A stretch of 38,968 nt of DNA from Pseudobdellovibrionaceae bacterium (GTDB lineage Bacteria; Bdellovibrionota; Bdellovibrionia; Bdellovibrionales; UBA1609), in contig JAUVAX010000021.1 in the NCBI GenBank assembly GCA_030591685.1, forward strand, positions 1-38,968, read 5' to 3'. The translations under genes and the position numbers were made by a program. Below are positions 4,100-36,187 of this stretch, one piece after another. The stretch's first letter is position 1. Each line of letters starts with the position of its first letter. The notes beneath the pieces are model-generated. The model searched no databases. It was not told where the DNA came from and saw nothing but the letters and a program-made list of their open reading frames with translations.

Positions 4100-4951
4100 A
4101 TGAAACCAAGTATCTATGAGCATACAAATTACCGCACCTATTTGCAGGCCTTTGTCAGTTTTAAAAAAGCCAAGCAGCCTCAGTGGACCTACGGTCAGTG
4201 GGCAAAGGCTTTAGGTTTAAAGGCGACAACATCTATTACTATGGTGCTCAATGGTCAAAGGCAACCCGGTGAAGGGTTAGCTCGATCATTAGCCTTGTAC
4301 TTTAAATTCGATGAGAACGAGCAACACTATTTTTACAACTTGATTCAACTTTCTAAGGCAGGGACCGAGAGTCACCTCAAGGAAATTTTAAAAAAAGAAA
4401 TCACCCTTCACGCCGCTAGAGAGTCAAAAGACGTTCTTGATCCCAACGTATTTACAATGATTTCTAATTGGTATTATTTAGCCATTCGCCAAATGGCAAA
4501 GACTCCCTATTTTAACCCCAGCGCTAAATGGATTGTTAATTCACTTCGGTTTTCAATCACTGAAAAAACCGCTGAACATGCGGTGAGGACGTTAAAAAAA
4601 TTAAAACTACTGGCTGTAGACAAAAACGGAAACATAACCCTAAGCAAGGCCCCTGTTTCTACTGAAAACGATGTGGCCAGAGAGGCCTATAAGATTTATC
4701 ACGAAGAGGTCACGAAGCTGGCATTAAAAGCCATTCGAACAATACCCGTTCATGAAAGGCAATTTAGAGCCCTGACCCTGCCTATATCAAAAAATCAATT
4801 GCCACAGGCTAAAGAGTTAATCCAAAAATTTGCAGATGATTTTGATAAACTGTTGTACTGCTCTGAAGGGGGTGAGATTTATCATTTAAACCTTCAACTG
4901 TTCCCTGTGGCCAGTTTAAACAATGATCAAAAAGGGGCCAAAGAGCTATGA
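4100..4951 (+). CDS. TIGR02147 family regulator
   Basis: A 283-residue protein of the TIGR02147 family, known mainly from Fibrobacter and Bdellovibrio relatives. The family signature is plain: YRTYLQ near residue 12, then WTYGQWAKALGLKATTSITM, VLNGQRQPGEGLARSLALYF and FDENEQHYFYNLIQLSKA. The first part forms an HTH-like domain. The second half (residues about 120-260) begins ISNWYYLAIRQM and contains a winged-helix-like segment ending in VDKNGNITLSK. Such proteins are thought to be regulators coupled to a neighbouring exported protein. Here the stop overlaps the start of the metalloprotease gene (ATGA), so the two are translationally coupled. It has no signal peptide. Confidence 0.88.
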   Translation: MKPSIYEHTNYRTYLQAFVSFKKAKQPQWTYGQWAKALGLKATTSITMVLNGQRQPGEGLARSLALYFKFDENEQHYFYNLIQLSKAGTESHLKEILKKEITLHAARESKDVLDPNVFTMISNWYYLAIRQMAKTPYFNPSAKWIVNSLRFSITEKTAEHAVRTLKKLKLLAVDKNGNITLSKAPVSTENDVAREAYKIYHEEVTKLALKAIRTIPVHERQFRALTLPISKNQLPQAKELIQKFADDFDKLLYCSEGGEIYHLNLQLFPVASLNNDQKGAKEL

Positions 4952-5982
4952 ATATTATATTAAAAGTATTTATATTTATTATGATGCCACTGATGGTTTT
5001 TTCAAGTGAGGGGGGCGATCAGGTAGGTAATGGCGGTGGCCTCGGGGAGCAGAATGTTTACTACGGGTTTATAAATCTAAAAAATATTTATCTTTTCTGC
5101 TTGAAATCAGATCAATGTTTGTCTAATAAAAAAGAGAAAGCTCTGCTTACAAAAATTTATAATTCACTAGATCAAGAGTATAAAGGAACAGGTATATTAA
5201 GGTTTCTATCAGGTCATGATCGACCAGATATATTTAAAATTAATGGTCAATTCAAAGCTGCAGTGACGGGCAACAAGGTTGGCGATATAATTTATATAAA
5301 CACAGATCGTTTGTATAAAAAAAATCATCAAGGGTATGTTGAGCCTGTTGGCATTGGTTCTGCGATGGGCCTTTTGACCCACGAGCTTGGGCACCATCAC
5401 AATATTTTGGAACATGACTTTTTAGAACTACTAGGCTCTCGAATTAGAGCATTTTCAACTTTTTCAATGACCCAGCTTTATGTTGATAACTATCTTGATG
5501 GAACAAATATACGATCCCCACTTTTAAAATTAACAGGTATTCATAAGCAGCTCATAACAGGGCGTTATTTAGATGGCGCGCAAAGTTCATTGTTATTTGC
5601 CGATGAAAATTTTTTACATGACTTAACCCCATGGGTTAGTGATGCAGTTAGTGTTTGCCCTCGTTTTCGAAACAACCCTGCAAGTAAAAACATAGGTTAT
5701 CGGTTATTTGATATTAAATGGGGTGATATGTATTATAGGGACGGCAGTGAGGCACACCGTACTTACGTAATTACCTCAAGGGTTGAACTTTTTTGTGAAG
5801 ATAACGTTGATACAAGTTATCCAGTTAGATTTGATACCTCTCGTAAGTTAATCATTAAACTACCCATTGAATATACGTATAAAAGAAACTCTGGAGTGTT
5901 GAATTCATATTGGGGCCTGAGGAGAGGGCTTATCCAGGTAAAGTTTGCTTCAGATGAGTTAAAGTTGGGACCCTTTTTTTAG
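4948..5982 (+). CDS. secreted HExxH metalloprotease-like protein
   Basis: A 344-residue exported protein with an N-terminal signal peptide (about residues 1-19, hydrophobic core ILKVFIFIMMPLMVF). The mature part begins with a Gly-rich GGDQVGNGGG segment seen in many exported proteins of Bdellovibrio relatives. A zinc-protease motif lies at residues 145-149 (HELGH, in LLTHELGHHHNILEH). The third zinc ligand is unclear; no GxxH follows, so it is not a standard metzincin. The rest is beta-rich and not recognised. The gene overlaps the TIGR02147 regulator by 4 bases and its 3' end overlaps the convergent acyltransferase gene by 53 bases. Zinc binding and proteolysis are inferred from the motif only. 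Confidence 0.7.
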   Translation: MNIILKVFIFIMMPLMVFSSEGGDQVGNGGGLGEQNVYYGFINLKNIYLFCLKSDQCLSNKKEKALLTKIYNSLDQEYKGTGILRFLSGHDRPDIFKINGQFKAAVTGNKVGDIIYINTDRLYKKNHQGYVEPVGIGSAMGLLTHELGHHHNILEHDFLELLGSRIRAFSTFSMTQLYVDNYLDGTNIRSPLLKLTGIHKQLITGRYLDGAQSSLLFADENFLHDLTPWVSDAVSVCPRFRNNPASKNIGYRLFDIKWGDMYYRDGSEAHRTYVITSRVELFCEDNVDTSYPVRFDTSRKLIIKLPIEYTYKRNSGVLNSYWGLRRGLIQVKFASDELKLGPFF

Positions 5983-20227: not shown

Positions 20228-21784
20228 TTACCAATCAATGGGTCGATAGTCTTTTAAAAATTTACCGCACCAATGTTGACCGGTAAGGATGCCGTCAAAA
20301 AATGGGTCACAAATTCGGGCGGCCCCGTCGACTATATCCAGTGGGGGTTGAAAATCATGAATGTCCTCTTTAAGTTTCGCTAATTGGGCAGGGTCCTCAT
20401 CGGTGACCCATCCGGTGTCGACCGCATTTACATAAATACCATGGTTTGCTAATTCACCGGAGCTTGTGTTGGTGAGCATATTTATGGCGGCTTTTGCCAT
20501 GTTTGTGTGAGGGTGGCGAGGCTCTTTTTTAAAACGTTGAAACTTGCCCTCCATTGCCGTGACGTTAACAATGTGTTTTTGTCCGGTATTATCTCTCTTC
20601 ATCATAGGCGTCAGTGCATTACAAAGAACAAACGGGGCCACAGCGTTTACAAGTTGTACCTCGAGCATTTCAGAGGTGTTTATTTCTCCTAATTTTAAAC
20701 GCCAACTGTTTGTGGTCCGTAAATCAACTTGTTGTAAGTCAGCATCTAGCTGCCCCTTGGGGAAGACCTCTTGAACTTTCAGTGAGTCATCATAAGAGTA
20801 AGGGACTTGCGATAATTGTGCAGAGGCTCTTAGCCCCACCCCAGGCCCTTGACCGTGCCAAATTACGGGCAAAGCACTTTCTGAGGCCATGTCGGTATTG
20901 CAAAGTCCGTTAAGCTGTCGGGTGCAAGCGTGGTGCTCACTTAAGAGTTGTTTTTCTTTTTCGTTAAAGCTTGAAAGTTCTCGAGCTTCATTTTTCATTA
21001 AGTGCTTGTAAAAACCAGGTGGGCGGCGAACGGTTTGAGCCGCATTATTTAATAGTAAATCAAGTCGATCATATTTTTGCTCGATAAAGCGAGCAAAAAT
21101 CTCAACACTAGGGGTATGACGTAAATCAAGCCCGTAGATTTGCAGGCGGTGCCCCCAGCTATTAAAGTCAGGCTCTTTAGAGTATCTAATCGCTGAATCC
21201 TTTGGAAACCGAGTAGTAGCGATCACCCTTGCCCCGGCTCGTAACATCATTAACGTTGCATGATAGCCAATTTTTAATCGAGAGCCTGTAATAAGCGCGA
21301 CCTGTCCTTTAAGTGAGGCGGTTTGAAACCTCTTCTTATAATTTAAATCAGCACATTTCATGCACATGGTATCGTAAAAATGGTGAACCTGTTTAAATTC
21401 AGCGCGACACACATAACATCGGCGTGGAGACTTTAGCTCACCAACCGCTTCACACATAGACGCGTCTGAGGATGAAATTTGTAAAGGGGCTGAAAACACA
21501 TCAGTTGTTCTTGCTGAACGTATGCCGGTTTTAGCTCTAAGGGCCTTGTCGTGTTTAACAAGAGCATGCTTCTTGGCGGTACGTTTAATCTTTCCTCTTT
21601 TTCGAGCCTCATATTTATCGGGCCTTGAAAGTTGTCCTGCGGCAATGAGTAAATCTTTTCGTTCGGCCTTAGTAAGTAGGCTGAGCTGTGAGGTGTCCCG
21701 CACAAGATTTTGTAAAACTTTAATAGCTGATTTAATGGAGTCAGGTGAAATTGTTTTTTTCTCTTTATGCTGTTCATTGCACAT
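20228..21784 (-). CDS. atypical SDR oxidoreductase with N-terminal zinc-ribbon-like segment
   Basis: A 518-residue protein. Residues 1-120 are basic and helical, then C123, C126, C141 and C144 (CYVC...CMKC) form a likely zinc knuckle. A Rossmann domain follows ([20 protein letters not shown] from about 162), with the SDR motif [12 protein letters not shown]. The usual YxxxK is changed to TNMAK and the serine motif to NVTAMEG, so standard SDR catalysis is doubtful; I recall this replacement as a trait of this long SDR subfamily. Start: an ATG at 21820 is open, but AAGAGG lies about 10 bases before ATG 21784. First gene of an operon with the RlmN-like gene. Substrate unknown; a role tied to RNA is only suggested by the neighbour. 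Confidence 0.7.
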
Positions 21785-22156
21785 ATACTTAAGGCCTCTT
21801 AAGGGTGGTAGACCATCCATATAGCCTAATCTTGTGCTAATGGCATGTATAAAAAAAGCTCATTTATAAGAGAGAGCCTTAGGGTGACTAATTTTGGTAT
21901 AACCTAAGGGCTTAATCAAAAAGAGCTTTGTAGATCAGTGACTCATGTAGCCACCCCTATTTTTTTAAGGGACATAGGTTGTTTATATACAGGACGTATA
22001 ACTTTTAGTCGTCGTACGGTATTGGGGCGTGCTGCCTTTAGTTGTTTTAATGGGTTAGCAGTGAAATTTACGTATTAACGCGATGCTAACGCCCCCTGTT
22101 TTGACCTGAGGTACAATATTTATAAGTGAGATGGTTCTTATAGCTTAGGAGTGAGT
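21785..22156. other. 372-base region between divergent genes
   Basis: No gene is supported. It contains an imperfect inverted repeat at 21875-21883 and 21903-21912 (AGCCTTAGG against CCTAAGGGCT, one bulge) upstream of the SDR operon, which could be an operator or a leader hairpin. A TTGACC at 22101 has no well-spaced -10 box. Confidence 0.5.
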
Positions 22157-25965: not shown

Positions 25966-26010
25966 ATCCTTATCTTGCGACCTCTCGCATTATTTGGTAG
26001 AAGGTTTGCT

Positions 26011-27021
26011 ATGAATTTAATAAACGAGTTAGTTAAAAATCCTTTTGTATTGGCTCCTATGGCGGGCATTACAGACAAAGCCTTTCGTGGCTTTATGCGG
26101 CAAATGAACTGTGGCCCTGTAATCACTGAACTCGTGAGCGCAAAAGGCCTTCAATATAATAGCGAAAAAACATTAAAGCTTATGCAGTTTGACAGTTATC
26201 AGCATCCTGTTGGCGTTCAAATATTTGGTGAGGATTTACAGACCCTTTCTGAGGCCGCTAAATTTATTGAGGGGATGGGGGCTGACTTTGTTGACTTAAA
26301 TTTTGGCTGCCCGGTGCCTAAGGTTGTAAAAAAAGGGTCTGGGTCGGCAGTGCTTAAAGACTTATCGAAGTTAAAAAAAATTTTAAGGGCTACAAAAAGT
26401 GCCGTGAGCATACCTGTAACAATCAAGGTGCGTACAGGCTGGGATGCACAAACAAGAAATACAGAACAGGTGGCTCAGATTGCCTATGACGAGGGGATTT
26501 CGTGGGTAGCTATACACGGTCGAACAAGGGCCCAGGGGTATTCGGGGCAGTCTGACTGGGACTATATCCGGCGAGTAAAGTCTGAGGCGCGATTGCCTAT
26601 CTTGGGTAATGGTGACATCACAACCCCGCAGTTAGCCATTAAAAGACTAGAAGAGAGCGGATGCGATGGAGTAATGATCGGCCGCGGGTGTTTAAAAAAC
26701 CCATGGATCTTTCGAGAGGCATTAAATTTATATTTAAAAAAGAACCATAATGTTCATCATGATTTTAAAGGATTATTTCAAGACCTTTATGAAAAGATGG
26801 CGAGCTTTCATGACGAACGAATTGCAGGCCTGCAAATCAAAAAACTATCAAGCTGGTTTTCAGCCGGCTACCCAGGGGCCGCCAACTATAGGCGTGAGCT
26901 ATTCAAAATCAAAGAGCATGATGAATTAATGGGTTATATAACTAACTATTTTTCCAATATTAGTAATCAGCCACAAAAAGACACGAGCAGCGAGTCGTTT
27001 TTAATGGGCGGGCACGGCTAA
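26011..27021 (+). CDS. dus: tRNA-dihydrouridine synthase (DusB-like)
   Basis: A 336-residue FMN enzyme that reduces uridines in the D-loop of tRNA. Family motifs are complete: PFVLAPMAGITDKAFR near the start, the active-site cysteine C100 in DLNFGCPVPKVVKKGSGSA, VTIKVRTGW, AIHGRTRAQGYSG, LGNGDI and GVMIGRGCLKNPW. The ending (AANYRREL) is of the DusB/Dus type. The frame is open from 25975, but AAGG six bases before ATG 26011 and the family's usual N-terminus favour the latter. It is divergent from tRNA-Phe. The DusB label is by resemblance; the specific tRNA position is not shown by sequence. Confidence 0.9.
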   Translation: MNLINELVKNPFVLAPMAGITDKAFRGFMRQMNCGPVITELVSAKGLQYNSEKTLKLMQFDSYQHPVGVQIFGEDLQTLSEAAKFIEGMGADFVDLNFGCPVPKVVKKGSGSAVLKDLSKLKKILRATKSAVSIPVTIKVRTGWDAQTRNTEQVAQIAYDEGISWVAIHGRTRAQGYSGQSDWDYIRRVKSEARLPILGNGDITTPQLAIKRLEESGCDGVMIGRGCLKNPWIFREALNLYLKKNHNVHHDFKGLFQDLYEKMASFHDERIAGLQIKKLSSWFSAGYPGAANYRRELFKIKEHDELMGYITNYFSNISNQPQKDTSSESFLMGGHG

Positions 27022-27110: not shown

Positions 27111-28022
27111 ATGAATTATATTCTAGAGGCACGGGGCATTAAAAAAAATGGCGCGACAGATGAGCGCATTAAATCACTGAGTATTGATTTAATGGCAAAA
27201 GAGTCTTTAGCCATCGTCGGGATTCAAAGGGGTATAATTAAAAGCATTAGGGATATTTTAAGTGGCAATAGCACCTTTGACTCGGGCGAGCTATTTATAA
27301 ACGGGTTAAACTCAAAGTACGGCAAAACAAAGGCACACATTGGGCTTGTGAGCACGGATTATGGCTTGGACCCTAGGTTTACAGTTTTAGAAAATTTAAA
27401 CTTATATGCAAATTATTTTTCTTTAGATAAAAGTGAGTATAAAAAGCAAAAAGAGCACCTATTAAAAGAGTACAATTTAGAGTCGGCTCTGGAGAAACTA
27501 CCTTGTGAATTATCATTAATTGAAATTTTAAAAATATTAATTATCAGGGCCACTATCCCAAGCCCTGAGATAATTATTGCCGAAGAGCCAGCAGGGCTAA
27601 GTGCATCGTCTCGGCGGAGCTATTTAGATCTCTTAAGGCAGGCGACAAAGGGGAGGCGGGCTCTTGTTTACCTCACAACTCATACAATAAATATTGAAAG
27701 TTACTTTTCAAGGGTGGCTGTGTTTTTTCAAGGTGAGATCGTTTGTGAGGGTCCCCCAGACAAACTTATAGAGGAGAGGGTCGGGCAGGTCGTCGCTATT
27801 TTCTCTACAAAGGACAGGGATAAAGATTATTATATAAAAAAAATAAAAGCAGACCATAGCTATCAAATTATAAATAATAAAATCAGATTATATTTAAGTA
27901 ATAAAATGGATTTAAATGAAGCCATGGAGTTCCTCCCTGGAGAAAACTTGATTTATCGACAAAGCCGCTTAGAAGATGTTTTGGTAAAAATGCAGGGGCC
28001 TAAAGCGCTGGAGGAAGTATGA
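27111..28022 (+). CDS. degenerate ABC transporter ATP-binding protein (pseudo-ATPase)
   Basis: A 303-residue protein with the full ABC ATPase layout (CcmA/NodI/DRA type) but with most catalytic motifs lost. The Walker A region reads VGIQRGIIKSI (36-46), with one extra residue and without the GxxGxGK glycines. The Q-loop glutamine is T82. The LSGGQ signature is LSLIE (134-138). In Walker B the aspartate is A157 (IIIAEEP). The D-loop aspartate is S164. Only E158 and H-loop H191 remain. The frame is intact, and it overlaps the permease gene by 4 bases. ATP hydrolysis is very unlikely as a homodimer; a structural role or pairing with an active ATPase from elsewhere are options. Confidence 0.85.
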   Translation: MNYILEARGIKKNGATDERIKSLSIDLMAKESLAIVGIQRGIIKSIRDILSGNSTFDSGELFINGLNSKYGKTKAHIGLVSTDYGLDPRFTVLENLNLYANYFSLDKSEYKKQKEHLLKEYNLESALEKLPCELSLIEILKILIIRATIPSPEIIIAEEPAGLSASSRRSYLDLLRQATKGRRALVYLTTHTINIESYFSRVAVFFQGEIVCEGPPDKLIEERVGQVVAIFSTKDRDKDYYIKKIKADHSYQIINNKIRLYLSNKMDLNEAMEFLPGENLIYRQSRLEDVLVKMQGPKALEEV

Positions 28023-28816
28023 TAAGGGCATTGCGCTTTAAGAAAAAAGGTTTACTCAATTTTTACACTCCCAATATAAATTCGCTCGTATTCACGAAAA
28101 GAAACTATAAGGCTTACAAAAAACAACTTATAACATCATTACTGCAAACTGTTGCCGAGCCAACATTATATTTTCTCATTTTTTCATATGGTATTAGCCT
28201 GTTTTTGGGAGCTCAACATGCATATATAGAGTTTTTATTTCCGGGGTATATAGCTTTTTGTGGTTTTAATTTAGGTTTTATAGAAAGCTCGTTTGGTGTG
28301 AGTCGCCGCCTTGCAGATAGGGGTGTTTTTGAGTCCATAAAACTGTCCCCAATAAATTTAGAGGACATCGCTTTTTCTGAACTAGCATGGTCAACACTTA
28401 GAGCACTATTTTGCCAAATCTCAATTGTTCTTGTATATATTTTTTTTACAAGAAGTTTACAATGGTCTCTTGTTTCTATCATATTTATGGGGGCACTTTG
28501 CTCATGGCTGGGGGCTGCAATGGGCCTTATCACTTTATCTCTGAGTAAAAAACCAGGCACAGCAAGTTATATTCAAAGTCTTTTTATTCTTCCGTTTTCA
28601 GCTGTTTCAGGTGTGTTCTTTCCTGTAGAGCAGCTGCCAAGGGGTATAGAGGCTCTTTTGTTTATAGCCCCCTTTACCCATGCAACGTCTATAATAAGGA
28701 GTGCGCTTGAGGGGGGCTTTAACTCAATATTTTATGTACAGATAGCTATTTTATTTTCATTTCTAGTGTTTTTAACAAATGTCTCGGTGACAATGTTTGC
28801 CTCAAAGCTTAAGTGA
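28019..28816 (+). CDS. ABC-2 type transporter permease
   Basis: A 265-residue inner-membrane protein of the ABC-2 (NodJ/DrrB) family with six membrane segments. The family signs are an amphipathic N-terminus followed by TVAEPTLYFLIFSYGISLFL, the FPGYIAFCGFNLGF segment, a cytoplasmic RRLADRGVFESIKLSPI stretch, and a late PFSAVSGVFFPVEQLP helix. It would export or flip a lipid-linked or hydrophobic compound. Its start overlaps the stop of the degenerate ATPase gene (ATGA), so the two are coupled. The permease itself shows no decay. Confidence 0.85.
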   Translation: MIRALRFKKKGLLNFYTPNINSLVFTKRNYKAYKKQLITSLLQTVAEPTLYFLIFSYGISLFLGAQHAYIEFLFPGYIAFCGFNLGFIESSFGVSRRLADRGVFESIKLSPINLEDIAFSELAWSTLRALFCQISIVLVYIFFTRSLQWSLVSIIFMGALCSWLGAAMGLITLSLSKKPGTASYIQSLFILPFSAVSGVFFPVEQLPRGIEALLFIAPFTHATSIIRSALEGGFNSIFYVQIAILFSFLVFLTNVSVTMFASKLK

Positions 28817-28830
28817 GCTTAGGGATTTTT

Positions 28831-28855
28831 AAATTAAATTAAATTAAATTAAATT
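28831..28855. repeat. pentanucleotide tandem repeat (AAATT)x5
   Basis: Five perfect copies. The repeat covers the last three codons and the TAA stop of the leftward epimerase/dehydratase gene and lies just after the ABC permease gene. Confidence 0.9.
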
Positions 28856-29827
28856 ACAGTCCTTGGCCCACTGAACGCTCTCTTTAATGGCAGCCTCTGC
28901 GGGGATGGGGTTAAGTTTTAAATATTTTTTAGCTTTAGTATTATCGAACCAGTGGTAAAGCGTGGAGGTCCATGCCGTTTCGCCATTGAGGGTTGGTTTT
29001 TTGCCAAAGCGCTCGAGTTGATCGCCGACATAGCCTAGGGTGCGAACAACAGGGTTTGGTAAGTAAAATTTAGGGGGTTCGACTCCAGAGAGTCGAGCAA
29101 TGGTTTTAAAAAGCTCTTTGATGGTGATGTTTTCGCCAGCAAGAATGTAGCGTTCACCACACTTTCCGTTGACCCAGGCTTCATGTGTCGCTTTCACAAC
29201 ATCTCGTATAGAAATTATATTTACACCACCTGAGGTGTAAACTTTAAACTCACCGCGCGCTACTTTTAGCTGGGTCTTTCGACTTGATTTTTTAGCGTCA
29301 CCTGGGCCGTAAATAGTTGAGGGGTTTACAATAACGGCATCTAACAGCCCATTTTTTGCGGCCGTCATGACATGCCTTTCGGCCTCTCTTTTGGTTTCAA
29401 AATATCCAAGGTTTAAGTGGTGAATGTTAAACTCAGAGTCTTCATTTAAAACTTGATTTTTATTAAACCCTGCGCCCACGGCAACAACAGATGAAAAGTG
29501 AACAAGGCGCTGAATTTTATTTTTCACACAGGCTTCAATTACATTTTTTGTGCCCTCGACGTTTACTTTTTGCATAAGAGCTCTTTGAGATCTCTTGTAG
29601 CCTATGACCCCGGCAAGGTGAAACACATGATCAATATTTTTAAACGCACTATTTAATGATTCTAAACGAGTAACGTCCCCAATAAGGTGGCGTATTTTTA
29701 AGCCCTTGAGTTCAGAGAGATCGCTGTTTTCTCTGTGTAGGACTGTTACGTCATAACCCTTCTCAACAAGGTGGCGGGTCATCCAAGACCCTGTAAAGCC
29801 ATTTGCGCCTGTTACTAAAATTCTCAT
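28844..29827 (-). CDS. NAD-dependent epimerase/dehydratase (extended SDR)
   Basis: A 327-residue extended SDR that would act on a nucleotide sugar, a sterol-like or a dihydroflavonol-like alcohol using NAD(P). The cofactor loop is TGANGFTGSW (6-15), the central strand HVFHLAGVIG, the serine motif VHFSSVVAVG, and the catalytic pair lies in GYFETKREAE (YxxxK). SIRDVVKATHEAW and ERYILAGENITIKEL are family features. The start ATG follows GAGAGG. The stop lies inside an (AAATT)5 repeat. It is divergent from the CNMP-MotAB operon and convergent with the ABC operon. The exact substrate is unknown. Confidence 0.85.
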   Translation of the reverse strand: MRILVTGANGFTGSWMTRHLVEKGYDVTVLHRENSDLSELKGLKIRHLIGDVTRLESLNSAFKNIDHVFHLAGVIGYKRSQRALMQKVNVEGTKNVIEACVKNKIQRLVHFSSVVAVGAGFNKNQVLNEDSEFNIHHLNLGYFETKREAERHVMTAAKNGLLDAVIVNPSTIYGPGDAKKSSRKTQLKVARGEFKVYTSGGVNIISIRDVVKATHEAWVNGKCGERYILAGENITIKELFKTIARLSGVEPPKFYLPNPVVRTLGYVGDQLERFGKKPTLNGETAWTSTLYHWFDNTKAKKYLKLNPIPAEAAIKESVQWAKDCNLI

Positions 29828-30035: not shown

Positions 30036-30503
30036 ATGGGCTATGAGAGCCTACTTAAAAATGTATATTTATTTAAGCAATTTAGCCCTAGTGAGATCGA
30101 AAAGGTAAGCGAGGGTATACAGTTGTTGAAGCTCCCAGCAAAAGCTAAGGTGTTTTCTGAAAATGATAAAGCAACCGCTTTATATGTAATCAGTTTTGGT
30201 TCGGTTGCGATACAGCAAAAATCAGATACGGGAGAAAAAATAGAGGTTGCGGTTCTTGGTATAGGTAGCCATTTTGGTGAAATGGCATTTATTGATGGGG
30301 AGCTGCGCTCCGCCTCGGCTGTATGTATGGAGCCCAGTGAGATCATTAAACTTTCTTACGTGAAATTAGAAAATCTAATTTCAAAGGATTTTGAGATGGC
30401 CGCAAGACTTTATAAAGAATTAGCCTATTTTTTGGCGGGTCGATTAAGAGTTACAACTAATGATTTGTCTTTTTCCCGTGAAAAAAACTTATCCTATTTT
30501 TAA
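30036..30503 (+). CDS. cyclic-nucleotide-binding domain protein
   Basis: A 155-residue protein made almost wholly of one CNMP-binding domain. The phosphate-binding cassette is well kept: FGEMAFIDGELRSASA with E82 and R91-S92, so cAMP or cGMP binding is plausible. There is no DNA-binding or kinase domain, so it is not a CRP-type regulator. A strong AAGGAG site precedes the ATG. It ends 17 bases before motA and is probably first in the same message, which suggests it senses a nucleotide signal for motor control or is simply co-expressed with it. Confidence 0.85.
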   Translation: MGYESLLKNVYLFKQFSPSEIEKVSEGIQLLKLPAKAKVFSENDKATALYVISFGSVAIQQKSDTGEKIEVAVLGIGSHFGEMAFIDGELRSASAVCMEPSEIIKLSYVKLENLISKDFEMAARLYKELAYFLAGRLRVTTNDLSFSREKNLSYF

Positions 30504-30520: not shown

Positions 30521-31279
30521 ATGGATTTTACAACTATAATCGGAGTTTCAATTGGTGTTGCCGCAATATTTTTAGGCAATCTTTTAGAGGGGGGGCATTT
30601 CTCAGCCCTCATTCAGTTTACTGCTTTTATAATAGTGTTTGGTGGAACCCTGGGGGCCACAATTGTATCAAATACTAAGGAGGGCTTAAACCGGTCTATT
30701 GACCTTTTTAAAGCAACACTTAAAAAGGATGATGAAACAAGATTTAAAAAAGCGGCCAACCAAATTGTGGATGCAGCAACAATAGTTAGAAAAGAGGGCC
30801 CCTTAGCTTTAGAGAAAAAGATACACAGCTTCGACGATCCATTTATGCAGGCCGCCTTTAGATTTAGCCTTGATGGTGTTGACGCCAAACAAGTTGAGGA
30901 GGTTTTTTACAATCGCATTGATGTAGAGGATTTAAATGGGCAATCCGGTGCAAAGGTTTGGATGGATGCGGCGGGTTTTGCCCCGACAATTGGGATTATA
31001 GGGGCCGTATTGGGGTTAATACATGTCATGGGTAACCTTTCTGATACGACTCAACTGGGCAAGGGCATTGCTGTAGCCTTTGTGGCTACAATTTATGGGG
31101 TTGGATCTTCAAACTTAGTATTTCTGCCTATCGGAAATAAAATAAAGGCCAAGTTAAAAAACCGAAAACTATTTCAAGAGATGATTGTTGCTGGAGTTGT
31201 CGAGGTATCAAAGGGGTCAAACGCACATGTTGTGTCAGTAAAAATGCAAAACTATATAAGTTCATCACGGTTTAGGTAA
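30521..31279 (+). CDS. motA: flagellar motor stator protein MotA
   Basis: A 252-residue inner-membrane protein with four membrane segments, two early (3-20, 30-50) and two late (about 148-168, 180-205). The typical MotA features are GGTLGATIVS, the cytoplasmic loop with KEGPLALEKK, the proline-containing segment AAGFAPTIGIIGAVLGLIHV and GIAVAFVATIYGVGSSNLVF ending in LPIGNKIK. With MotB it forms the ion-driven stator. It lies 3 bases before motB. No second motor pair is in the window. Confidence 0.92.
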   Translation: MDFTTIIGVSIGVAAIFLGNLLEGGHFSALIQFTAFIIVFGGTLGATIVSNTKEGLNRSIDLFKATLKKDDETRFKKAANQIVDAATIVRKEGPLALEKKIHSFDDPFMQAAFRFSLDGVDAKQVEEVFYNRIDVEDLNGQSGAKVWMDAAGFAPTIGIIGAVLGLIHVMGNLSDTTQLGKGIAVAFVATIYGVGSSNLVFLPIGNKIKAKLKNRKLFQEMIVAGVVEVSKGSNAHVVSVKMQNYISSSRFR

Positions 31280-31282
31280 AAA

Positions 31283-32023
31283 ATGCGAAGAAGTACAAAT
31301 CAAGAGGAGCATGAGAACCATGAACGTTGGCTTGTCTCCTATGCCGATTTTATAACGCTCTTGTTTGCTTTTTTTGTGGTTCTATATGCAACCTCTGAAA
31401 GTAACGAAAAAAAGAAAAACGAATTTCAAAAATCAATAAAAAAATACTTTTTGGGAGCCATAAGTGCTGGCCCTTCAGGGGAGGCCTCGGGCTCTGGCAA
31501 GGGTGAAAAACACAAATACGACGCAATAATTGATAGCCCGATAAAAAGATTCAATAAATTAAAAGCAGCGACGAGGGGTTTACAAAAAAACTTAGAGAGC
31601 CTGATAGAGTCGCAAATATCCACGGAAGAAACAAAAAAATATATTTTAGATATTTATAGTGACGAACGAGGGGCTCGATTAATATTAAATGCCAATAAGA
31701 TTTATAAATCAAAGGGCGCTCGTCTTAAAGAATCTTCATTTAATTTTTTAGATAAAATGGCATCCATTATTAAAAAGTTAGAAAGACAAATCGTAATAGA
31801 AAATCATATTAGTACTGCGCTGGCTCCCGGTGACGAGTACTCTCGGTGGGGGTTGACGTCAGCTAGATCGGCTCGTTTTTTGAGTTACTTGCACGCTCAG
31901 CACAATCTCTCTTATGAGCAACTGGTGCCGGTGGGGTTCGCCTCGACCCGCCCGCGAGTCCCTAGGGGGGCTGACAAAAGAAACTCCCGTATTGAGCTTG
32001 TGTTTAAAGATTTACGCATGTAA
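31283..32023 (+). CDS. motB: flagellar motor stator protein MotB
   Basis: A 246-residue stator protein. The single membrane helix (about 17-37) has the ion-binding aspartate D22 in SYADFITLLFAFFVVLYA, typical of proton-type MotB. A plug/linker region rich in Gly-Ser and Lys follows (SGEASGSGKGEKHK), then an OmpA-like peptidoglycan-binding domain (about 140-242) with WGLTSARSARFLSYL and RNSRIELVF. The ribosome site is AGGT, five bases before the ATG. It forms an operon with motA and the CNMP-binding gene. Confidence 0.92.
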   Translation: MRRSTNQEEHENHERWLVSYADFITLLFAFFVVLYATSESNEKKKNEFQKSIKKYFLGAISAGPSGEASGSGKGEKHKYDAIIDSPIKRFNKLKAATRGLQKNLESLIESQISTEETKKYILDIYSDERGARLILNANKIYKSKGARLKESSFNFLDKMASIIKKLERQIVIENHISTALAPGDEYSRWGLTSARSARFLSYLHAQHNLSYEQLVPVGFASTRPRVPRGADKRNSRIELVFKDLRM

Positions 32024-32356: not shown

Positions 32357-35300
32357 TTGAAGCCCTTAAAAGTATTACTTCATAAGACACTTACAGTTAT
32401 TTTTACATGGACTTTTTTGTTTCCAGGCGCAGCCCTTGCGGCATCAACAGGTGAAACACCGGCCACAATCAAAAGGCCCACAAGGGGACAGCTCGAAAAG
32501 ACGGCTCAAAAAATTATCGATTCAAATCGGTCCTTTCAAATTTTAATGTCCAGCAAGGCCCGTACTCATTACACTGATAAAAAACTTAAAATGGCAAAGG
32601 AGCAGGCTCGCCCAGCCAATCAAAAATTTTTCTCAAGAGAGACTGACCGTTTCAAAAGGGTAGCAAAAACAACAGCCAAAGATTCGGTTTTCTTTTTTGC
32701 AGCAGGTGTTCTTGTGAGTCGGTTTTACTCAACGGTTGCTGGTGAATGGATGGGTAAGGCCAAATACCTCACAGACCCTCAAACACTAGAAACCAATTTT
32801 GAACAACTCAAAAGTCCCGAAGGCTTTGCCCACTTTTTTTTGTTTATAGGCGCAATGGATTACTACAATGATTTGACTAGGTCTATGGTTGAAAATAAAA
32901 AAGACTTGTCCCCTAAGTTAAAAAAGTTTTTAAGTGGCAAGTACAATGGATATGCAGGCATGGCTGTAGCAACTGTCGTTGCTAGTATTGTGATGGAGAT
33001 GACTATTGGTATTAAAGACTGCACTTATGCAAAAATTGCAGACTCACATAACGCGATTAAATTTGACCAAGGTTATAGTGATGTTGAATTATCAAAAAAA
33101 CAACAACATATAGAGGCTTGTGATGCCCTATACATGAAATGGATCTCCGGTAAGGGGGTGCAGATTTTAGCTACACAGATGGTCAGCCTGGTAGCGGCGG
33201 CGGGCCTAGGCGGGATTCTTCAGAGTATGGTGTTTTCTCCTGTTGCATCGGCAAAAAATGGGCTGTCTGTTCTGGGAAAATATGGCGCTGCGGCAACAAA
33301 AAAACTAGAGGAATCAGGGTTTAAAAGTAGAAATAAAAAACCAACTAGAAAAGTTAAATACAGTGCCGCTAAAAAAATTGCTAAAAGCAAGCTAACACGG
33401 CAGTTAATAAAAGCTAAAACTGCTGGACTTGGTATAATTGGCAGTATTGCGGCAGTAAAAAACGTACTTTTAGCCATGAACCCCATGCCTATTGCTAAAG
33501 TTATACAGTTCACATTCTTTTTAGCTGCGCAAACATTAATAGAACCCCTAGTAGAAGAGGTGAACGGGGCGATTAACACAAAGTTTTTAATTAATGCCGA
33601 AAACAGACTCGTTAAAAGTATTGCTGTCTCTAAACAAAAGGGGTGGAGCGATAGCTCTATTGAGAAAAAATCAAAAATACATCGCCGGTGTTCTCGGACG
33701 GGTAAAAACTGCAAAGGTATTTTAGAGAGTTTAAAGTTCTATACTCACGAAAACAGAGACTGGCGCATGCATAAAATGGCGACAGCCTCGCTAGCAAATG
33801 CCAATTGGTTTGACTATGTCATAGACATGACTAAGCGGTACGATGGGGCCAAGCTTTTTTACGAAAAAATAATTACAGACATTGACTTATATGATTTTAA
33901 AAAAGGTGTTATCCCCCCATTTGATGCTGTGTTGCCTGTAAAAATTGAAGATGGACAGCTAATTTACTATGGCGAGAGAGATGAGTCTTTATATTCGTAC
34001 ACATTAAGGCCGGGGGTAACATTTGAAGAAGAACAAAAAGAGCCTGAACAGACAGGACTGCAAAAACTAGAAGCCCTGCAGTCGGATTTTGAAAAAAACA
34101 TTATTGTTCTTAAAGAAATGCCTGATGATATTTCTTTTGAAGAGTCTGCTAATTTTTTGTTCACCCTGGATCAAGAGTCCTTTTTTGAAATCCTTAATTT
34201 TTCAGTAGAAGATTTAGCCCAGGCAAGTCGTGAAGATAAAGATTCAAATGAAACCGACGTAGAGTTTTTCTTTAAGGAAGTTAAAAGAAAGGCTCGGCTA
34301 AAAGCACCAGAACTTATACAAACAGCAAAGTTACGAGTTAAAGACGAAATTGAAAGCCATGAAAAGTCTATTGTTGATATTAAAGCTGAACGTGACCGAA
34401 TCATTAACGCCAACAGAACGCTTCATACAGAGCTATTAGCTGGAGTTAACTTAGAGGGGTATAATAAATATGATGTAGGACGGGTTATTAACATAAAGTA
34501 CGCAGCCCAGTTAATAAAAAAGAAACTCGACCACTGGAAGGCCAATGAGGACCAATACCCCGTAGTGACTACAGTAAAAGGGACTCAGTATGATATGTAT
34601 CTTGAAAGAATTAATCTAAACAAACTTTACGATTTATTTTCGTCAAACCGTAAGGCCGACTGGTCCACGGGTGTAAAATTATTAGATGATTCAGTGAGAG
34701 GCCCTAGAAATAGGTGCAAAAAAATAAAGATTAGCCTCAAAGACTTTGACCCCAGCGTTGATTCTGAGGAGCTATTTGTAGAAACCTATATACTCACAGG
34801 CACTAGTTATGAGCTATTTTGTACAAAAGACCTCGTCTACGACAGGCTTGGGTGGCCAAAAGTACAAACCTACATTAATAATTATTTAGACGATTATTCA
34901 GAAGAGGTTTTAAAATCAAATAATGACATTAGAAATATTCATTTAAAAAAGGTTTCTGGGTTTAAAATTGATAACGCCGCTGAGGACTTTTTAACTCACA
35001 TGGTCTGTGGGCCAAGAGTATCAAGTTCACCTGAAACTTTAATTAAAGATACTGGTACAGAGTTTATTGGTGAAGGGCTGCCGTGGACAAGCCTTACTTT
35101 TTTACCCCCAAGAATTGTAAACGTAAAAGGGAACATATGCAAAAAAAGCATAGTTAATAAGCTATCACTCTCATCAAAAAGTATTTATGAGTCTGAATTT
35201 CAGGTAACAACTAAGTATAATCAAAAAAAGACGTATACAAACCTTCTCTCACTTGTTCAAGAGAATATTATGGACACGGCGATTGGTCCTATTCGATGCG

Positions 35301-36187
35301 CTGAGACAGTAAATTACCCTGAAATTCCGATGCTTCCTGGCCAAGAGAAAGGCCAAGAGCCAGTTTCAACTAATGTTGATAAAACAAAAGGCTACCCGTC
35401 TTGCAACTATGGCACCTGGGAGGAGAGCTTTTCTCTTTGGTGGAGCAACAACGTCGCAGGAGCTTTTGAGGTTCAAGTAGAGCATGCAAAAAAAATATAC
35501 GGTAAAATTGTAGATGAAGTTATTAGCCCGGCTTTTTATGGCCATAAAGCGTATGATCGTGACAGCTATAAAGAGGGTGTATTTAGTGTTCAAGAGAACA
35601 TGGGGGTGTCAGATGCAATTAAAATTGAGTGGTCAGTATATATAAACGAGGTTCTGTCAAAAATTTACACGTCTTCTGTGAGAGAATTAAAGGCCGGTGT
35701 GAGTGAAAAATCACAGGCCAATATTAAAATGAAAAAATGGGGTCAGTCGTTATTAGCTGTACTTGGTGAGTATTTGACTATGAATAAATATAAAAAGCTT
35801 GAAACACAAGAGGTAGAGGCTCGGTATATTTTTTCTTTACTCAATGCTTATAAAAGGGCCGTAAGTCTTTCAAGTGGTGAGCTTCAAGCAGAGATTAAAA
35901 ACTTAAAGGCAAAAATTAAAAGTATTCAGAGCGCCCCCTCGCACCCAGACGCAGGGAGTTTGTCTGAGTACAAAAGAAGACTTCAAGTTTTAACCGGAGC
36001 AGATCAGGGTCAGCAGGCTGAGGAGGCCTACGCTATAGCTCAGTCGGGTTATGAACTCGTCACGTTAACAGAGGTGGAGCTTTCAGGGGCACAAAAAAAG
36101 GTCATTGAAAGAGCCATAAGCGCCATGGAGTCAATAGTGATGGAAGTGAGTCAGTACCGAGGATTTTTTACAGACCTCACTCAATAA
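32357..36187 (+). CDS. very large exported/membrane protein, unknown function
   Basis: A 1276-residue protein starting with TTG, with AAGGA eight bases before it. A signal peptide (residues about 1-29, TLTVIFTWTFLFPGAALAA) is followed by several hydrophobic segments in residues 110-410 (FFFAAGVLVSRFY, YAGMAVATVVASIVMEM, ILATQMVSLVAAAGLGGIL, VIQFTFFLAAQTLI). The rest is soluble, helical and charged, with paired cysteines (CSRTGKNC and others) and coiled-coil stretches near 650-700 and 1190-1240 (LKAKIKSIQSAP). I recognise no domain. Its length suggests an envelope structure or host-interaction role, but nothing proves it. It is followed at 225 bases by a small exported protein. Confidence 0.75.
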   Translation: MKPLKVLLHKTLTVIFTWTFLFPGAALAASTGETPATIKRPTRGQLEKTAQKIIDSNRSFQILMSSKARTHYTDKKLKMAKEQARPANQKFFSRETDRFKRVAKTTAKDSVFFFAAGVLVSRFYSTVAGEWMGKAKYLTDPQTLETNFEQLKSPEGFAHFFLFIGAMDYYNDLTRSMVENKKDLSPKLKKFLSGKYNGYAGMAVATVVASIVMEMTIGIKDCTYAKIADSHNAIKFDQGYSDVELSKKQQHIEACDALYMKWISGKGVQILATQMVSLVAAAGLGGILQSMVFSPVASAKNGLSVLGKYGAAATKKLEESGFKSRNKKPTRKVKYSAAKKIAKSKLTRQLIKAKTAGLGIIGSIAAVKNVLLAMNPMPIAKVIQFTFFLAAQTLIEPLVEEVNGAINTKFLINAENRLVKSIAVSKQKGWSDSSIEKKSKIHRRCSRTGKNCKGILESLKFYTHENRDWRMHKMATASLANANWFDYVIDMTKRYDGAKLFYEKIITDIDLYDFKKGVIPPFDAVLPVKIEDGQLIYYGERDESLYSYTLRPGVTFEEEQKEPEQTGLQKLEALQSDFEKNIIVLKEMPDDISFEESANFLFTLDQESFFEILNFSVEDLAQASREDKDSNETDVEFFFKEVKRKARLKAPELIQTAKLRVKDEIESHEKSIVDIKAERDRIINANRTLHTELLAGVNLEGYNKYDVGRVINIKYAAQLIKKKLDHWKANEDQYPVVTTVKGTQYDMYLERINLNKLYDLFSSNRKADWSTGVKLLDDSVRGPRNRCKKIKISLKDFDPSVDSEELFVETYILTGTSYELFCTKDLVYDRLGWPKVQTYINNYLDDYSEEVLKSNNDIRNIHLKKVSGFKIDNAAEDFLTHMVCGPRVSSSPETLIKDTGTEFIGEGLPWTSLTFLPPRIVNVKGNICKKSIVNKLSLSSKSIYESEFQVTTKYNQKKTYTNLLSLVQENIMDTAIGPIRCAETVNYPEIPMLPGQEKGQEPVSTNVDKTKGYPSCNYGTWEESFSLWWSNNVAGAFEVQVEHAKKIYGKIVDEVISPAFYGHKAYDRDSYKEGVFSVQENMGVSDAIKIEWSVYINEVLSKIYTSSVRELKAGVSEKSQANIKMKKWGQSLLAVLGEYLTMNKYKKLETQEVEARYIFSLLNAYKRAVSLSSGELQAEIKNLKAKIKSIQSAPSHPDAGSLSEYKRRLQVLTGADQGQQAEEAYAIAQSGYELVTLTEVELSGAQKKVIERAISAMESIVMEVSQYRGFFTDLTQ

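Follow-up and report, generated by a model that had tools for sequence, protein, structure and literature searches.

An ABC-2 gene pair with an altered ATP site

Contig JAUVAX010000021.1 of the Pseudobdellovibrionaceae bacterium assembly GCA_030591685.1, analysed at its full length of 38,968 nt (the window), carries two genes resembling an ATP-binding cassette (ABC) exporter of the ABC-2 type: a NodI/DrrA-type ATPase subunit with a broken ATP site (pseudo-ATPase; 303 aa; 27,111–28,022) and a NodJ-type permease with six transmembrane helices (265 aa; 28,019–28,816), both on the forward strand. The host genome (G000) consists of 2.66 Mb in 98 contigs, of which the window is C91. The open reading frames (ORFs) share 4 bp (28,019–28,022), confirming the kept frames and ATGA coupling described in an earlier reading made from the sequence alone. 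Pfam recognises both products, ABC_tran at 33.4 bits (cut-off 25), the weakest full-domain match among ~30 in the host genome, and ABC2_membrane at 66.4 bits (cut-off 26.9). The top NCBIfam families are NodI (69.2 bits; curated cut-off 424) and NodJ (88.8 bits; cut-off 206.65), both scoring well under cut-off. The pair aligns over its full length with canonical orthologues, an ATPase with a C-terminal domain and an adjoining ABC-2 permease, and shares with NodIJ/DrrAB-type exporters (TIGR01288, TIGR01291, TIGR01188) the order ATPase then permease, overlapping ends, a NodI C-terminal domain and a six-helix ABC-2 permease. It differs from them in its destroyed ATP site, scores far under the cut-offs and relaxation of the permease loops facing the nucleotide-binding domain (NBD).

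Comparison with 41 aligned canonical orthologues, in which eleven catalytic positions are essentially invariant, located the changes in the ATP site. In the Walker A region (residues 36–47; 27,216–27,251) VGIQRGIIKSIR replaces LGPNGAGKS/TTx; within it GIQRGIIKS stands for GPNGAGKST, the last glycine and the lysine (K43) both being isoleucine, with a lysine one residue further on and out of register. The Q-loop glutamine is threonine (position 82; 27,354–27,356), the signature region (residues 134–139; 27,510–27,527) is LSLIEI rather than LSGG(M/Q)K, with SGG changed to SLI, and the H-loop histidine is threonine (position 190; 27,678–27,680), a histidine being present at the next residue. From Walker B to the D-loop (residues 154–164; 27,570–27,602) IIIAEEPAGLS corresponds to canonical LLFLDEPTTGLD, with one residue deleted and D164 replaced by serine. 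The alignment thus bears out the changes reported by the sequence-only reading in Walker A, Q-loop (T82), signature and D-loop (S164). Its statement that Walker B is changed holds in part: IIIAEEP replaces L(I/F)LDEP, with A157 in place of a hydrophobic leucine and a conservative D158E, but the change is milder than claimed and catalytic E159 is retained. Walker B alone is near intact (EE for DE), and all other ATP-site motifs are changed.

Two technical explanations for these changes were ruled out. The two other frames across the motifs are broken by stops and contain no canonical motif, so a compensating pair of frameshifts is not involved. A sequencing error in the motif codons, named in the earlier reading as a possible refutation, is discounted since eleven other genomes carry the same kind of erosion.

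Both proteins are predicted by AlphaFold2 to be folded, with predicted local distance difference test scores (pLDDT) of 91.1 (ATPase) and 92.7 (permease). The best PDB fold match of the ATPase is 4YER (TM-score 0.79; 302 columns, the whole length) and NosF was also matched; Foldseek matches of the permease are ABCH, KpsM, TarG and Wzm exporters (TM-score ~0.6–0.66).

Erosion of the ATP site among relatives

A search of 59 relatives returned full-length orthologues at 25–33% identity, and permease-profile searches covering the family (47 genomes), order (141) and class (144) gave ~80 pairs of this NodIJ type, whose motif state was read from the DNA. Canonical motifs were found in nearly all pairs of family f8, in those of f3, f4, f5 and f9, in part of f1 (the family of the host genome) and in the same-class outgroup f11. 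Eroded pairs were found in twelve genomes of two families, f1 (G000, G005, G006, G007, G009, G017, G025, G027 and G033) and f2 (G036, G044 and G049), usually at the same chromosomal position. Erosion is graded among lineages. The H-loop histidine and D-loop aspartate are lost in all twelve genomes and the Q-loop glutamine and both signature glycines in 11 of 12, compared with five losses of the Walker B aspartate, four of the Walker B glutamate and four of the Walker A lysine position (G000, G025, G036 and G049). Walker A (GxxxxGKS/T) is intact in seven of the twelve genomes, several of which also retain the Walker B DE. As a set, the eroded pairs give an order of loss in which H-loop, D-loop, signature and Q-loop precede Walker A and Walker B.

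Some related loci fall outside these groups. G015 shows a partial case of erosion, and in one f8 pair (G070, L122) the Q-loop glutamine is threonine and the signature is LPVGF, with Walker A, Walker B and the H-loop histidine intact, possibly an early stage of erosion in another family. Several genomes carry a second subgroup of NodIJ type (G049:C214, G017:C76, G110:C1:257059, G042:C1:358128 and others; permease E ~1e-57), whose members read (L041, L042, L045, L067, L068 and L070) are canonical; G049 and G017 carry this subgroup besides their eroded pair.

The ancestor of the pair was canonical, and same-class outgroup genomes carry a canonical typA-nodI-nodJ arrangement. On a species tree of RpoB, RpoC and DusB the eroded state needs six changes, of which five are forced by well-supported branches, and a single origin is found in no bootstrap tree. 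When eroded lineages were added singly to the canonical rows, the G033 pair joined its canonical congeners G022 and G059 (support 96/98); for G017 the approximately unbiased test gave p-AU 0.109. Erosion is well supported as an independent event for G033 and for f2 at least, and the remaining events are probable. Spread of a single eroded paralogue by transfer is countered by the placement of G033 with its congeners and by the differing locus context, eroded pairs lying behind typA in f2 and behind dusB in f1. An ancient tandem duplication with differential loss was also rejected, as no genome carries two copies of this locus type.

Selection and possible function of the pair

Loss of constraint is concentrated in the motor and in the parts of the permease that face it. 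Mean identity of the catalytic columns falls from 0.91 in canonical to 0.27 in eroded pairs, compared with 0.38 and 0.29 for the NodI-type C-terminal domain (residues 225–303; 27,783–28,019), where constraint is near-canonical and G225, Y240, R283 and D289 are retained in the window protein. Seven ATPase residues (E6, R8, G59, L134, Y240, R283 and D289) are kept in all twelve eroded genomes. The permease segments with the lowest ratio, residues 91–109 and 175–189, are by predicted topology the ATPase-facing cytoplasmic loops between transmembrane helices 2 and 3 and helices 4 and 5 with adjoining helix ends; the difference from the rest of the permease is significant but not overwhelming (p 0.005–0.016). 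In the window permease the strongest loss is at residues 97–113 (28,307–28,357), the end of helix 2 and the first cytoplasmic (coupling) loop, and at residues 174–183 (28,538–28,567) in the second cytoplasmic loop. External and re-entrant parts stay higher, with P48, E89, W124, P192, F201, P202, P218 and R227 kept. Motor and transmission have relaxed together, and the membrane core to a smaller degree. The permease called healthy in the sequence-only reading is indeed open and predicted to fold, but has diverged strongly overall, in step with the ATPase, and its NBD-facing loops are less constrained.

Neither gene contains a stop in the host genome or in the eroded relatives (G015 excluded; the permease of G027 is truncated at the end of its contig). 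The hypothesis that the ratio of non-synonymous to synonymous substitution (dN/dS, omega) equals 1 was rejected for G036/G049 (likelihood ratio 106) and for G009/G027 (likelihood ratio 132); the G000/G007 permease pair gave no information on omega. The ATP cycle was very probably already absent in the common ancestor of each pair, and G036 and G049 share a two-residue deletion in the Q-loop. Identity at codon position 2 is 66% for G036/G049 and 66–70% over both post-loss pairs, and at position 3 it is 33% and 33–37%, respectively, with 27–28% (28% for G036/G049) expected by chance. The marks of a decaying pseudogene, stops or frameshifts and dN/dS near 1, were not found. Judged by the rejection of omega = 1 in pairs with saturated dS, the open ORFs and the predicted structures, the genes appear to have lost catalytic residues while purifying selection was kept. 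The earlier suggestion of a selected pseudo-ATPase rather than simple decay is favoured by these observations and by recurrence in independent lineages. Canonical orthologues and dN/dS near 1 had been named there as signs of decay; the former exist, but the latter is not seen.

The most probable interpretation, held with some reserve, is that the ATP motor of an ordinary ABC-2 exporter (NodI-type ATPase, NodJ-type permease) was dismantled repeatedly, while both subunits remained under selection and the complex persisted as a membrane assembly independent of ATP. The starting state was a canonical exporter at the same locus. Q-loop, signature, D-loop and H-loop were lost repeatedly, and Walker A and Walker B afterwards in some of the lineages, with parallel relaxation of the two NBD-facing loops of the permease. 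Both proteins would still form one membrane complex, in which the pseudo-ATPase may be a structural cap or a subunit for assembly on a permease dimer that functions with no ATP-driven cycle, e.g. as a passive flip path for lipids or lipid-linked glycans or as an envelope scaffold. A role in the envelope is favoured because fold relatives of the permease export lipids or lipid-linked glycans and because of the mtgA neighbourhood. In the simplest account the ATP cycle has ceased, and the proteins would remain necessary as such.

Slow decay is the main rival, and we consider it unlikely though by no means negligible: transporter function would be lost stepwise, with the eroded genes as intermediates toward a clean deletion such as sister genomes show. 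Several observations agree with it or otherwise weigh against a selected complex. The system is dispensable, the pair having been deleted from at least eight genomes of the same family; in f1 genomes without it dusB mostly lies directly before mtgA and/or the short-chain dehydrogenase/reductase (SDR) gene, with no detectable remnant of NBD or permease at the locus. The rate of evolution is, for both subunits, several times that of canonical lineages, and, besides the gradation of erosion, the residues replacing the motifs vary by lineage, with no common new active site visible. Since dS is saturated in all pairs, omega is bounded below 1 but its value is not usable, and only the rejection of omega = 1 was relied on; for the window lineage taken alone, part of the constraint may predate motif loss. 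Finally, a pooled NBD and permease tree groups the eroded rows and is compatible with their forming one clade (p-AU 0.185), although their branches are very long and long-branch attraction is the likely cause of the grouping. Slow decay is countered by the rejection of omega = 1 in pairs with a common loss, by the nearly normal constraint on the C-terminal domain, and by ORFs that are open in all eroded lineages despite saturated synonymous sites, when an unconstrained 300-codon frame at this G+C content would remain open with p ~1e-9. Moreover, the pair has been removed without trace in other members of the family, so its retention elsewhere is not passive.

Two further alternatives would leave a role for ATP, and both appear improbable. 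The subunit could bind nucleotide without hydrolysis and act as a nucleotide-sensing gate, as the eroded genomes with intact Walker A, and in several cases also Walker B DE, might suggest; however, the Walker A lysine position is gone in the window protein and three relatives, and hardly any eroded genome keeps the Q-loop and signature that an ATP-sandwich dimer requires. Similarly doubtful is continued driving of the permease by ATP through an active ATPase from another locus, which would pair with the degenerate subunit or replace it. Some importers share ATPases, and the host genome has ~29 well-scoring ABC ATPase domains. However, every NodI/DrrA-like ATPase gene found there adjoins its own permease, with no unpaired NodI-type ATPase among those examined, and a search at 1e-3 gave a single NodJ-type permease of this kind. 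A scan of the genome contigs gave one distant match. The permease loops that would touch an ATPase have also lost constraint. In a composite site one subunit contributes Walker A and its partner the signature; the window subunit has lost both, so neither site of a heterodimer would be complete, and the earlier proposal of dimerisation with an outside ATPase finds no support.

The interpretation of a conserved ATP-independent complex also sets the pair apart from known systems. Degenerate catalytic residues held by selection are shared with heterodimeric exporters that have one degenerate site (BmrCD, MsRv1273c/72c, TAP, PatAB), but known degenerate ABC transporters retain one good site through the heterodimer (e.g. 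PMC12038006, PMC4046567). Here there is one ATPase gene with motifs lost on both faces and no evident partner; with no paired second NodI-type gene and both halves of the site lost, a consensus ATP site is not provided by a second subunit. The eroded state presumably arose from a homodimeric ancestor. Solitary BioY is a transporter that works without its ATPase. The engineered membrane domain of MsbA (MsbA-MD) is an ABC membrane domain that works without ATP, although a lipid-related function was not supported (PMC8660845). In both of these the NBD is removed or absent, whereas the window pair retains a pseudo-NBD that is constrained and predicted to be folded. KpsMT, TarGH, Wzm-Wzt, NosFY and ABCH-9C (Type V/ABC-2) resemble the pair in fold, but all are ATP-driven. 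An open-access literature search on pseudo-ABC or inactive ABC-2 ATPases returned papers on degenerate sites of heterodimers only, which is weak evidence of absence, and the papers searched described no lone homodimer-derived pseudo-ATPase that is kept with an ABC-2 permease and recurs at a single locus.

More tentatively, and as a proposal that is plausible but short of probable, ABC-2 exporters of this order may have been converted at least five times to ATP-independent assemblies, with the elements of the ATP sandwich and hydrolysis and the coupling loops broken first and the nucleotide pocket afterwards. The pseudo-ATPase would then be an obligate structural subunit, on a recurrent route from pump to passive device. 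The ATP motor is a defining trait of ABC transporters. Natural, independent losses of the motor at one syntenic locus, with the canonical state in close relatives (even within one genus), offer a ready-made test of what an ABC-2 permease is capable of in the absence of ATP, and of which NBD parts are important beyond ATP.

Neighbouring genes and other features of the window

The upstream neighbour of the pair is dusB (tRNA-dihydrouridine synthase; 25,975–27,021, forward strand; TIGR00737, 329 bits, cut-off 293), which marks the conserved locus, DusB being 53–69% identical at this position in almost every locus of the same family. Downstream and convergent, within the same conserved locus, is an HpnA-like SDR epimerase gene (28,844–29,827, reverse strand; TIGR03466, 230 bits, under the cut-off of 368), homologues of which adjoin the locus in relatives. 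The order in f1 is dusB-nodI-nodJ followed by convergent mtgA-like and/or HpnA-like SDR genes; in f8, f5, f2 and the outgroup f11 the pair lies behind typA/bipA, with mtgA usually next. TypA, MtgA and SDR were identified from sequence by visual reading or through homology with the window gene, family libraries having been run for dusB and SDR only.

The upstream gene thus switches between families, typA/bipA in f8, f5, f2 and f11 and dusB in f1, f3, f4 and f9, with the pair and downstream mtgA often retained (e.g. L033, L103, L135–L137 and L203 versus L020, L032, L035 and L036). The window locus (28,816–28,844; relatives L170–L179) lacks the mtgA-like gene that most relatives have between dusB (or nodJ) and SDR. 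In the sister genome G005 a stretch of N (masked bases) lies just upstream of dusB (L139, 3,448–3,879).

Elsewhere in the window, a 530-aa short-chain dehydrogenase (20,228–21,820, reverse strand) has two separated adh_short stretches by Pfam, the best at residues 376–472, suggesting a large insertion or fusion. A gene for a DUF4423 protein (4,100–5,982, forward strand) has a stop that overlaps the start of a gene for a 344-aa protein with no Pfam match. A 1276-aa protein, also without a Pfam match (32,357–36,187, forward strand), is encoded downstream of a MotA/MotB-like pair (30,521–32,023) and a small cyclic-nucleotide-binding protein (30,036–30,503).
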